Assembly: GCF_014205215.1 (NCBI RefSeq) | Contig: NZ_JACHNC010000001.1 | Coordinates: 9,792,501 to 9,856,500, forward strand | Length of the DNA stretch: 64,000 bases | From: Actinoplanes lobatus | GTDB taxonomy: Bacteria; Actinomycetota; Actinomycetes; Mycobacteriales; Micromonosporaceae | Direction of reading: 5' to 3' | Part shown: piece after piece, positions 36,877 through 39,946 of the stretch | Layout of the letters: every line of letters begins with the position of its first letter | How positions within the stretch are numbered: the first letter of the stretch is position 1 | Program-made: the position numbers and the translations under genes | The notes under the pieces: generated by a model | The model's database searches: none | The model's input: the letters and a program-made list of their open reading frames with translations, nothing else | What the model was told of the DNA's origin: nothing

Positions 36877-38178
36877 CTAGCCCGCGAGGCGGAACAGCTC
36901 GGCGTGGATCTGGCGGGACGGGACCTTGAGGCGGCGCAGGCCGGCCAGGACCGCCTCGGTCAGGGCGGCCGGGCCGCACACGTACACGTCGCGGTCGGTG
37001 ATGTCGGGGACCATGGCCCGCAGCCGGTCCGGGTCAAAGGGCTGGTTGCCGGGCCCGGTCCGGCCGGTCAGCAGGTGCAGCCGGGCGCCCCGGGCGGCGG
37101 CCAGGTTGCGCAGTTCGCCGAGCAGGACCGCGTCGGAGCCGCCGCGGACCCGGTAGAGGACGATCACGTCGTCGCCGATCCGCGGGTCCTCCAGCAGGGA
37201 CCGGATCGGGGTGACGCCGATGCCGCCGGCGATCAGGAGGGTGGCGGTGCGGGCCCGCCGGTCCAGGGTGAACGCCCCGTACGGCCCTTCGGCGAACACC
37301 CGCGCCCCGACCGGAAGGTCCCGCAGCCCGGCCGTGGTACCGCCGACCGCCTTGGCGGTGAGCCGCAGCGACCGCCCGTTCGGCGCGGCCGACAGCGAGA
37401 ACGGGTTGACCTGCCACCAGCGGTTGTGGCCGGGGAACCGCCACAGGAAGAACTGCCCGGCCCGGGCGCCCAGCTTCTCCAGGTCGCGGCCGGTCACGTG
37501 GACCGACACCACGTCGTCGGACTCGGGCACCACGGCGGCCACCCGCAGCCGGTGCCGGGAGTTGCGGACCAGCGGCACGATCACCCGGTTGGCCAGCAGC
37601 GCGCCGAGCACGAACGCCCACAGCCCCCACCAGTACAGCCGGGTCGCCAGGTTGGTGGTGAAGGCGGTGCCCTCGACGTACTGGTGGATGAGGCCGAGCA
37701 CCAGCACCGCGTAGAGCAGCAGGTGGACGGCGTGCCAGGCCTCGTAGGAGAGGCGGCGGCGGGCGGCCCGGATGGACAGCGCCACGACCAGCACGATGAG
37801 GGCGACCGCGATCATGCCGAGCAGCACCGGCCACTGTTTGGCCAGGGTGAGCGCGGTGGCCGGGACCGGGTCGCGGCCGGCCCGGGCGAACCCCACGATC
37901 ACCCAGGCCGGGTGCAGCAGGGCCAGCCAGAACACGGTGAGCCCGGCGCGCCGGTGCCAGCGGGTCAGCCGGTCCATGCCGAACGACCGGTCCAGCAGCG
38001 GCAATCGGGAGATCAACAGCACCTGTACGGCCAGGGCGAACGCCAGGTACAACCCGAGGAGGCGGCCGGCCGCGCCGATCAGGTTGTAGGCGGGCGGCCG
38101 GCCGAGCAGGAACAGGACGTGGACGGCGGCCAGATTGACCACGAGGAACGCCGCGACCGCGGCACGCGCGAGGATCAT
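36877..38178 (-). CDS. Ferric-reductase-like transmembrane haem protein with FAD/NAD domain
   Basis: A 433-residue membrane oxidoreductase. Six helices contain paired haem-ligand candidates: HRRAGLTVFWLALLHPAW and WHAVHLLLYAVLVLGLIH. The C-terminal cytoplasmic half is a ferredoxin-NADP reductase module: FAD motif NPFSLSAAPN, NAD motif LLIAGGIGVTPIRSLL and Cys-Gly-Pro in VYVCGPAALTEAVL. ATG 38178 follows GGGGGA. It resembles ferric reductase/NOX-type proteins passing electrons across the membrane; the acceptor is unknown. It lies downstream of tRNA-Cys with no clear terminator between them, so the two may share transcripts. Confidence 0.9.
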   Translation of the reverse strand: MILARAAVAAFLVVNLAAVHVLFLLGRPPAYNLIGAAGRLLGLYLAFALAVQVLLISRLPLLDRSFGMDRLTRWHRRAGLTVFWLALLHPAWVIVGFARAGRDPVPATALTLAKQWPVLLGMIAVALIVLVVALSIRAARRRLSYEAWHAVHLLLYAVLVLGLIHQYVEGTAFTTNLATRLYWWGLWAFVLGALLANRVIVPLVRNSRHRLRVAAVVPESDDVVSVHVTGRDLEKLGARAGQFFLWRFPGHNRWWQVNPFSLSAAPNGRSLRLTAKAVGGTTAGLRDLPVGARVFAEGPYGAFTLDRRARTATLLIAGGIGVTPIRSLLEDPRIGDDVIVLYRVRGGSDAVLLGELRNLAAARGARLHLLTGRTGPGNQPFDPDRLRAMVPDITDRDVYVCGPAALTEAVLAGLRRLKVPSRQIHAELFRLAG

Positions 38179-38269
38179 CCGGTCTCCCCCTGCCTGGACC
38201 TCCATCATGGGGGGTGTACCGCGGTCGGCGCCGTCTAGTTCAAGACAGTCCGGAATTGTTTTTCAAGAA

Positions 38270-38343
38270 TGGAGACCGCAACCGGATTCGAACCGGTGTG
38301 GATCGTTTTGCAGACGATTCCCTAACCACTCGGGCATGCGGTC
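38270..38343 (-). tRNA. tRNA-Cys (anticodon GCA)
   Basis: 74 nt including an encoded CCA. Acceptor stem GACCGCA/TGCGGTC, anticodon stem ATCGT/ACGAT around loop CTGCAAA (anticodon GCA), T arm CCGG TTCGAAT CCGG, short D stem with GG in the loop, and discriminator T73, a known cysteine identity base. The space upstream (38344-38378) is too short and lacks promoter motifs, so transcription most likely comes from the promoter at 38540-38512 through the attenuator-like leader. Confidence 0.95.
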
Positions 38344-38370
38344 GTGAAATGGTGCGCGCATTCGGGCGCC

Positions 38371-38410
38371 AAAAGAAACGCCACCCGCCCCCAGCAGGGG
38401 ACGGGTGGCG
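38371..38410 (-). terminator. Terminator/attenuator between the Cys-rich leader and tRNA-Cys
   Basis: On the minus strand the stem CGCCACCCG ... CGGGTGGCG encloses an inner CCCC/GGGG pairing and is followed directly by TTTCTTTT: a complete intrinsic terminator, rare in form for this GC-rich genome. It ends about 27 nt before tRNA-Cys. Its 5' arm overlaps the sequence able to pair with the end of the peptide ORF (38435-38445). Confidence 0.85.
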
Positions 38411-38422
38411 CGGCAAGCATCG

Positions 38423-38499
38423 CGAACGGCTCTAGCCGCACCACCGGTCCGGGGTACAACAGACGCGACACATAGCCGATCTCCTTCTAGAGCCGTTCG
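38423..38499 (-). promoter_or_regulatory. Leader RNA: 13-bp stem enclosing the Cys-rich ORF, with candidate antiterminator
   Basis: CGAACGGCTCTAG (38499-38487) and CTAGAGCCGTTCG (38435-38423) are perfect 13-bp arms enclosing the ribosome site and nearly all of the ORF; the stop codon lies in the right arm. In addition GGTGGTGCGGC (38445-38435, the Trp-Cys-Gly codons) can pair over 11 bp, with one G-U, with GCCGCGCCACC (38414-38404), which contains the 5' arm of the terminator. The pairings are seen in sequence; mutual exclusion and regulation are inferred. Confidence 0.7.
38432..38473 (-). CDS. 13-residue cysteine-rich leader peptide
   Basis: MCRVCCTPDRWCG, with Cys at 2, 5, 6 and 12. A perfect AAGGAG lies 7 bases before the ATG. 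Three of the four Cys codons are TGT, the rarer codon in a GC-rich genome, which would sharpen stalling when charged tRNA-Cys is scarce. It is too small for a signal peptide or enzyme. The location before an intrinsic terminator and tRNA-Cys points to a ribosome-mediated attenuator. A cysteine-rich bioactive peptide is a less likely alternative, since no modification or export gene is adjacent. Confidence 0.75.
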   Translation of the reverse strand: MCRVCCTPDRWCG

Positions 38500-38511
38500 A
38501 AGCTGTGGCCC

Positions 38512-38540
38512 ACATTAATCGAGGCTCGGGGAATGCGCAA
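38512..38540 (-). promoter_or_regulatory. Promoter for the leader-tRNA-Cys transcript
   Basis: TTGCGC (38540-38535), 17-bp spacer, TAATGT (38517-38512) on the minus strand, in an AT-richer pocket immediately after the stop of the preceding gene (38541). Predicted start near 38505, about 30 nt before the leader ATG. Confidence 0.6.
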
Positions 38541-39451: not shown

Positions 39452-39946
39452 TCAGTCGGCGTTCACGGGATGGGCGACCAGCGTGCGCAGCGTGTCGAGG
39501 CCGCGTGCCGCTTGACTCTTGACGGTTCCCGCGGAGCAGCCGAGTGCCGCCGCGGTCTCCTCCACGGACAGGTCCTGCCAGTAGCGCAGCACCAGCACGG
39601 CCCGCTGCCGGGCCGGCACCCGGGCGAGCGCGCCGAGCAGGGTCACCCGGTCGTCGGACGGCTCGGGCGCCGCGGCCCGATCGATCCGGGTCTCCTGCGG
39701 CCGCTCCCGCCGCCACCAGCCCCACCGCCCCTCGTCGATGAAGGTCGAGATCAGAACCCGGCGGGCGTACGGGTCGAGCGACTCGTGCCGCTGGACCCGG
39801 TTCCACCGCAGGTAGAGCTTGGTGAAGGTCTGCTGAACCAGGTCCTCCGCACGGTGCCAGTCACCACAGAGCAGGAACGCCGTCGCCCGCAGGGCGGACG
39901 ATCTGGCCGCGAAGTACTCGGCGAACGCCTCGTCGCGGTCGGTCAT
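39452..39946 (-). CDS. SigE-family ECF RNA polymerase sigma factor
   Basis: A 164-residue sigma factor with region 2 (FAEYFAARSSALRATAFLL, AEDLVQQTFTKLYLRWNRV, PYARRVLISTFIDEGRW) and region 4 (VPARQRAVLVLRYWQDLSV, ALGCSAGTVKSQAARGLDTL). The region 2.2 form AEDLVQQTF and short length match the actinobacterial SigE family. Followed by its probable membrane partner. No matching target promoter could be assigned by eye. Confidence 0.93.
   Translation of the reverse strand: MTDRDEAFAEYFAARSSALRATAFLLCGDWHRAEDLVQQTFTKLYLRWNRVQRHESLDPYARRVLISTFIDEGRWGWWRRERPQETRIDRAAAPEPSDDRVTLLGALARVPARQRAVLVLRYWQDLSVEETAAALGCSAGTVKSQAARGLDTLRTLVAHPVNAD

Follow-up and report, generated by a model that had tools for sequence, protein, structure and literature searches.

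A putative translated-leader attenuator before an accessory tRNA-Cys gene of Actinoplanes lobatus, and a class of leaders whose codons match the tRNA genes behind them

The leaders of the trp, his and leu operons are ribosome-mediated transcription attenuators of amino-acid operons. The element described here resembles them in having a short translated leader with regulatory codons, a terminator, and an alternative pairing between the ORF end and a terminator arm, but differs in that the genes it would regulate are tRNA genes, sometimes RNA-repair genes, and in that some leaders would respond to many amino acids and name the very tRNAs under their control. In mycobacteria, Cys-codon-rich upstream ORFs reportedly attenuate sulfur-metabolism genes; our leader is likewise a Cys-rich short upstream ORF (four Cys), yet a tRNA-Cys gene lies behind its terminator and its class extends to other amino acids. 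Examples of actinobacterial attenuators of amino-acid operons are given in one article (PMC1262725).

For accessory tRNAs, the report on the Anabaena trn operon describes a silent tRNA array that is turned on by translational stress (PMC10272220). Our loci are also accessory tRNA arrays, presumably silent; the regulator there is a DNA-binding repressor, TrcR, whereas each of our arrays stands behind a translated leader of its own with codons to match. In the Salmonella RtcBA operon, RtcB is reported to be induced in response to tRNA damage, and the sensor is RtcR, a CARF protein binding tRNA fragments (PMC7790460). At a few of our loci the same RNA-repair gene may be tied to such a response, but the sensor would be a translated leader and the spare tRNAs belong to the unit. 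Dense accessory arrays similar to ours occur in actinobacteria as the mycobacterial tRNA array units, where the role of the redundant tRNAs is called not clearly understood; the main text is free of the words leader and promoter (PMC5966550). Among titles and abstract starts of the open-access literature we found no description of leader peptides before tRNA arrays. The attenuator principle is known, while the apparent tRNA targets and inventory principle are new to us and absent from the open-access literature searched.

The locus lies in a 64,000-nt stretch of the Actinoplanes lobatus genome (contig NZ_JACHNC010000001.1), which we call the window and whose positions are used throughout. Its features, all on the minus strand, are as follows:

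38512..38540, minus strand: promoter-like site TTGCGC-N17-TAATGT of the leader transcript (TTGCGC at 38540-38535, a 17-nt spacer, TAATGT at 38517-38512), by sequence
38487..38499, minus strand: 5′ arm CGAACGGCTCTAG of a 13-bp stem around the leader ORF, by sequence and fold
38481..38486, minus strand: Shine-Dalgarno AAGGAG of the leader ORF, by sequence
38432..38473, minus strand: leader ORF MCRVCCTPDRWCG with its stop, Cys codons 2, 5, 6 and 12, by sequence and homologous leaders in relatives
38435..38445, minus strand: 5′ strand GGTGGTGCGGC of the putative antiterminator, within the last ORF codons, by its 11-bp pairing with 38414-38404
38423..38435, minus strand: 3′ arm CTAGAGCCGTTCG of the same 13-bp stem around the ORF, overlapping the stop codon, by sequence and fold
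38404..38414, minus strand: 3′ strand GCCGCGCCACC of the putative antiterminator, overlapping the terminator 5′ arm, by sequence and pairing
38371..38411, minus strand: intrinsic terminator with a 15-pair stem (38411-38378) and tail TTTCTTTT (T-run to 38371), by scan and conserved in family-element alignments
38270..38343, minus strand: accessory tRNA-Cys (GCA), CCA encoded, by ARAGORN and Rfam

The leader ORF, the 13-bp stem, the terminator and a tRNA-Cys(GCA) starting 27 nt past it (ARAGORN) are all present as first described in an earlier note on this DNA, and so is the 11-bp pairing proposed there between the last ORF codons and the terminator 5′ arm (38445-38435 with 38414-38404). The promoter named in that note fared less evenly: the string TTGCGC-N17-TAATGT is there, but a strict sigma-70 scan missed it (0 found). 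A looser form, TTGN3-N16-19-TAN3T, lies 5′ of 72 of 89 family leaders against 1.8 expected, and in none of the 42 terminator-to-tRNA gaps that are 40 nt or longer, where 1.2 would be expected. The tRNA-Cys matches Rfam RF00005 with 59.1 bits (E 3.2e-10), and the 162-nt leader folds at -85.8 kcal/mol compared with -64.6 (sd 3.8) for shuffles, giving a z of -5.5. By itself the window terminator is no more than chance would give (1 found vs 0.8 expected in the scan); the locus stands above chance because the element recurs, in 64 of 67 genus genomes and before tRNA genes in 111 of 114 hits read. A T-box riboswitch was rejected as the device, since the window, scanned against Rfam at gathering scores, gave only the tRNA. 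The next gene downstream (36877-38208, minus strand) encodes a ferric-reductase-like membrane protein; upstream (39452-39946, minus strand) lie an ECF-type sigma factor and a protein that matches nothing in Pfam.

ARAGORN, run on the regions surrounding the 79 tRNA matches that Rfam has in this genome, gave 81 tRNA predictions, one without identity, and called tRNA-Cys four times. Two identical housekeeping tRNA-Cys genes both lie in Gly-Cys-Val clusters and differ in sequence from that of the window, which is a spare (accessory) tRNA-Cys and not the sole one of the cell. The fourth, divergent call (L092, G000:C1:10287735-10287810) is not preceded, within 400 nt and by the rule applied here, by an ORF resembling a leader. 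The genome holds three further arrays, each with a leader ORF and terminator element in front: Trp-Phe-Glu-Gln-Thr-Asp-Ile-Val-Glu-Asn behind leader MNRWQTDTISVAVVIEAFDEQVNNFESQPGRRC, Arg-Leu-Ser-Pro-Ser behind MSAEQMLLLSRPLGRWRG, and Gly-Ala-Lys-Met-Val-Val-Tyr behind MSTQPTCVTARAWAKRYGYAVPVVAARLPRRGHGPGWWSG.

Recurrence was assessed with a covariance model of the ORF end and terminator (R1), trained on 25 segments from tRNA loci; as seven of these extend 1-18 nt into a tRNA, a trimmed model with no tRNA base (R2) was built. In the genus, R1 matches 64 of 67 genomes at E 0.01; in the family, genus included, it matches 134 of 250 at E 1e-4, spread over 22 of 44 genera. R2 likewise matches 64 of the 67 genus genomes and re-finds all 59 loci given to it, 55 from other genera and four RtcB loci. 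The R1 hits that were read are the best by E-value, to about 1.7e-5 in the genus and 4.9e-6 in other genera, and number 169 after three duplicates (L124-L126) were left out. tRNA genes stand behind 159 of them (134/144 without training loci). On the same strand they follow 111 of 114 hits in the genus, 86 of 89 once the 25 training loci are removed, and 48 of 55 in other family genera; the order of leader ORF, terminator and tRNA is thus conserved in relatives, which favours the reading of the earlier note. A leader ORF with a Shine-Dalgarno sequence is found at 109 of 114 genus hits and at all 55 of the other genera. The 156 loci with both leader and tRNA carry arrays of 1 to 30 tRNA genes and leaders starting with ATG (133) or GTG (23), and an intrinsic terminator separates leader and genes in the window and in family alignments, the model itself including the terminator. 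A 450-nt gap rule set the array limits, and some arrays run up to the edge of the DNA examined; the contents given are therefore minima.

The remaining hits are of several kinds. Four from other genera have RtcB (L251, L268), RlaP (L234) or HNH (L230) rather than tRNA behind them, and three (L227, L228, L235) lack tRNA by the rule, with tRNAs further downstream. Two genus hits (L213, L217) have neither tRNA nor leader, and in L151, L170 and L200, also of the genus, tRNAs are present and the leader is absent by the rule. In the genus locus L144, leader and terminator are followed by a PHP-domain protein, with one tRNA-Val about 1 kb on. The HNH gene of L230, a small endonuclease behind leader and terminator, belongs to a type also reported in mycobacterial tRNA arrays (PMC5966550). 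In L226, L227 and L264 the leader is followed by a second short ORF with a sequence like ..ARPGWP.. and no array; a tRNA with anticodon CAT lies further on and may be housekeeping.

To look beyond the family, we ran R1 with strict filters on 397 genomes of the order (E 1e-5); 32 genomes matched, five of them outside the family. Four of these belong to one family of the same order (f13) and gave seven hits, of which the four looked at (L280, L282, L283, L286) each have leader and tRNA; the match in the fifth (L303) is a false hit. At class level (394 genomes) three matched, and the sole match outside the family (L309) is without leader or tRNA and was rejected; distant forms may escape R1 at these levels. 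The class is found in Micromonosporaceae, by the names of the relatives, and in one other family of the same order. Those names come from an exact-pattern search that gave 23 loci in Actinoplanes, Paractinoplanes and Winogradskya, 20 with array and leader and three with neither; many of the 20 are loci of the genus set and therefore supply names, not new evidence. In viral contigs, at least 120 stretches had the exact pattern, and none of the 80 scored with R1 matched. A degenerate DNA pattern was discarded as too noisy in the genus, hitting 67 of 67 genomes at up to three mismatches with a reversed control about equal.

Leaders were then compared with their arrays, for which the start Met and the last five leader residues were omitted. 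From the 156 loci one was dropped (L171, one-residue leader), and the 155 remaining pairs were clustered to 89 with leaders below 50% identity. Leader codons follow the downstream tRNAs, again in favour of the earlier note: mean recall (array amino acids with a codon in the leader body) was 0.958 compared with 0.649 (sd 0.023) in permuted pairs, and precision 0.525 compared with 0.329, both unmatched in 5000 permutations. The match holds likewise within leader-length strata. Recall was 0.957 versus 0.658 in the 84 pairs without training loci and 0.946 versus 0.776 in the 29 pairs of other genera alone (0/5000 each), and 0.929 versus 0.738 in 17 small arrays of other genera (4/5000). Every array amino acid is covered in 73 of the 89 pairs, where permutation gives 26.4 and at most 37 (129 of 155 with redundancy included), and a cognate codon stands in the leader body for 528 of 584 array tRNAs versus 327 permuted. 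For example, an array of Trp-Gln-Tyr follows leader MRRWQYPYLVLTGRRS, Asp-Ile-Glu-Asn follows MNAINEDIIRWRR, Lys-Met follows MTMKVKMKRPGPGRRRG and, in another genus, Pro-Thr-Ile-Arg-Pro-Val-His follows MITTRRVTVVPTPRPHTIPVIRPTGRWRG.

For some amino acids, codon choice also tracks the isoacceptor. Among the 12 amino acids tested (P values uncorrected; Ile excluded as having one isoacceptor only), the observed match was reached in none of 2000 permutations for Leu, Ser and Arg, in one for Lys and in nine for Thr; arrays with Lys-CUU only have AAG at 21 of 21 leader codons, and those with Lys-UUU only have AAA at 3 of 3. The match was slight for Gly (23), Gln (36) and Glu (85 of 2000) and absent for Ala, Val and Pro, with 1813, 1522 and 577 of 2000 permutations reaching it. 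Ten leaders, counted with start Met and tail, contain each of the 20 amino acids within 40-62 residues, which makes their match generic; some identical or near-identical ones precede differing arrays. They are L229, L242, L247, L256, L257, L259, L260, L266, L273 and L278.

As for the switch itself, the ORF end GGUGGCG is complementary to the terminator 5′ arm CGCCGCC, and the seven-pair core of the putative antiterminator is formed in 90.1% of cells across 87 family sequences. Ten pairs form at 78.6% in register versus 36-62% in slid registers and 78.3% with shuffled columns. The covariation that the earlier note called for in this stem did not appear, compensatory change in the 87 sequences being not above column shuffles; as shuffled columns do equally well, covariation is no proof of the antiterminator. 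Duplexes of an ORF end with its own arm average -17.8 versus -16.9 kcal/mol for swapped ones (0/10000), a small gain in which the median own duplex lies at the 35th percentile of swapped, and in 73 of 87 cases the own duplex is better than with shuffled ORF ends. A consensus fold of 14 sequences has 7 of 26 predicted pairs, from the terminator and others, changed on both sides (raw count). As judged from complementarity, the ability of the ORF end to pair with the terminator 5′ arm is conserved.

We then folded the transcript up to the terminator arm, with the stalled ribosome placed at the last array-cognate codon. In the window, the predicted fraction of the arm paired upstream is 0.67 with the ribosome stalled, 0.19 with the ribosome at the stop and 0.05 with no ribosome; the means of 85 family members are 0.50, 0.19 and 0.76, and stalled exceeds at-stop in 63 of them, equals it in 16 and is lower in six. 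Stall-on, finish-off is therefore the predicted logic, as the earlier note had supposed. The untranslated state is predicted to be off in the window and on for the family average: the 13-bp stem around the ORF, nearly complete in the closest relative (G019), is not general, and the average member without a ribosome is predicted to form the antiterminator.

In the mechanism we propose, a ribosome supplied with plenty of the sensed charged tRNAs would reach the stop codon and cover the ORF end; the terminator would then form and the spares would stay silent. If one sensed charged tRNA is scarce, the ribosome would stall on its codon, leaving the ORF end to pair with the terminator arm, and transcription would read through into the replacement tRNAs. 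The natural trigger, of which we are less sure, may be loss of tRNA to anticodon nucleases, toxins, or phage or competitor attack, which new tRNA would make good. Judged on sequence evidence, the best explanation of the window locus, to which we give a probability of about 0.8, is a ribosome-mediated attenuator of the spare tRNA-Cys that belongs to a class whose leader codons match the downstream accessory tRNAs. The sequence itself shows the leader ORF with its ribosome site, the terminator, the tRNA array and the match in composition of leader and array. The spares are probably made only when the tRNAs read by the leader codons run short. The attenuator proposed in the earlier note thus gains from conservation and codon match; a device for Cys only does not stand beside a multi-amino-acid class, and the tRNA controlled would be an accessory copy.

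RNA-repair genes occasionally lie behind the predicted element or within arrays. RtcB follows it in L251 and L268 (Pfam E 1e-125 and 3e-121) and, by motif, in L279, where it sits between tRNA-Glu and tRNA-Arg; RlaP follows it in L234 (Pfam, 2e-17). Of 111 family genomes, 99 have RtcB above the cut-off; among 30 RtcB loci picked by score from this set, the element was found at four (L339, L348, L349, L356) and not at the other 26. An array of 17 tRNAs encloses RtcB in L348, L356 also has one tRNA-Glu, and in L339 the leader is absent by the rule; L341 has tRNAs on both sides of its RtcB match, with the element undetected.

These loci bear on the most serious alternative, in which the leaders sense amino-acid starvation: low cysteine, or Leu, Tyr and so on, would be read as by the trp and his leaders, the tRNA genes being a mere output. 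The anatomy equals that of amino-acid biosynthetic attenuators, and a stalled ribosome cannot tell an uncharged tRNA from a missing one. Yet extra tRNA should give no relief of an amino-acid shortage, many leaders would sense several amino acids together (ten of them all 20), a few loci hold RtcB or RlaP, and no biosynthetic or aminoacyl-tRNA synthetase gene was noticed in 14 neighbourhoods, where selected proteins were searched by family. We put starvation sensing at perhaps one chance among several. The likelier purpose is a response to tRNA depletion or damage, with replacement of the tRNA lost, and not one to cysteine supply: starvation would persist however much tRNA was made, and at a few loci the element stands before RtcB or RlaP. 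The earlier note's reading of sensing through the Cys codons is supported.

Slightly less favoured is a general translation-stress switch, in which any slowing of ribosomes, by antibiotics or low ribosome supply, would induce the arrays and the codon match would be a secondary bias. It would accommodate the untranslated leader, predicted on average to form the antiterminator (0.76), and the existence of all-20 leaders, and antibiotics that target translation are reported to switch on the Anabaena trn array (PMC10272220). The 14 neighbourhoods, with selected proteins searched by family, gave no single conserved protein partner of the arrays. EF-G-like GTPase genes with a similar start lie within a few kb of four of the 14 arrays (L313, L316, L317, L318), the one checked by Pfam (L316) being EF-G-like, and may mark a translation-stress island. 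Such a switch gives no reason to expect codons specific to the array, let alone to the isoacceptor, nor leader differences that track the array between homologous loci. These differences are seen in 33 independent homologous pairs with differing arrays: an amino acid confined to one array is more frequent in the leader of that array in 57 cases, less frequent in 19 and equal in 52 (P 1.5e-5, nominal because one pair can contribute several amino acids). Leaders of the form MLC.. (MLCTYLYLAPDRWRG-like) precede the Leu-Tyr-Cys arrays, and MLYARLYLAPDRWRG precedes the Leu-Tyr array L148. Two Tyr-only loci keep Cys codons, L046 with leader MFCCYRVPDRWCG and L030 with leader MFCRYRIPDR and a degenerate tRNA-Cys, and leaders with all 20 amino acids hardly vary with the array.

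The closest relative raises a further doubt. G019 is 93% identical to the window on both sides of a tRNA-Tyr present only in G019, which has Tyr and Cys, and so the window copy, with a single tRNA left, may be a remnant that no longer works. We think this improbable: the locus retains an intact ORF, ribosome site, terminator and tRNA as well as both pairings, and the window leader MCRVCCTPDRWCG has a Cys codon where that of G019 (MCRVCYAPDRWCG) has Tyr, as expected of upkeep after the loss, if that was the direction of change. It is very unlikely that the leader/array match lacks regulatory meaning and only reflects common ancestry or base composition, for although leaders and arrays are co-inherited and related pairs are therefore not independent, the match survives clustering below 50% identity, length strata, restriction to other genera and removal of training loci, and is also seen in homologous pairs with differing arrays.

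Returning to the attenuator of spare tRNAs, we lean towards a broader picture in which Micromonosporaceae have a decentralised response to tRNA damage: the leaders would be inventories, and the loss of any listed tRNA would stall a ribosome there and free replacements, at some loci together with the ligase RtcB or the repair protein RlaP. If this is true, the leaders span single-tRNA sensors, as in the window, to pan-sensors holding all 20 amino acids in as few as 40 residues. The class would offer natural single- and multi-tRNA sensors, link tRNA replacement with RNA repair and, if its members are attenuators, show attenuation acting on tRNA genes themselves. To the question why bacteria keep large redundant tRNA arrays, the leaders offer an answer that can be read from sequence, each array being apparently silent until a listed tRNA is missing. 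The idea is therefore directly testable: the inventories predict, from sequence alone, which tRNA loss would induce which array.
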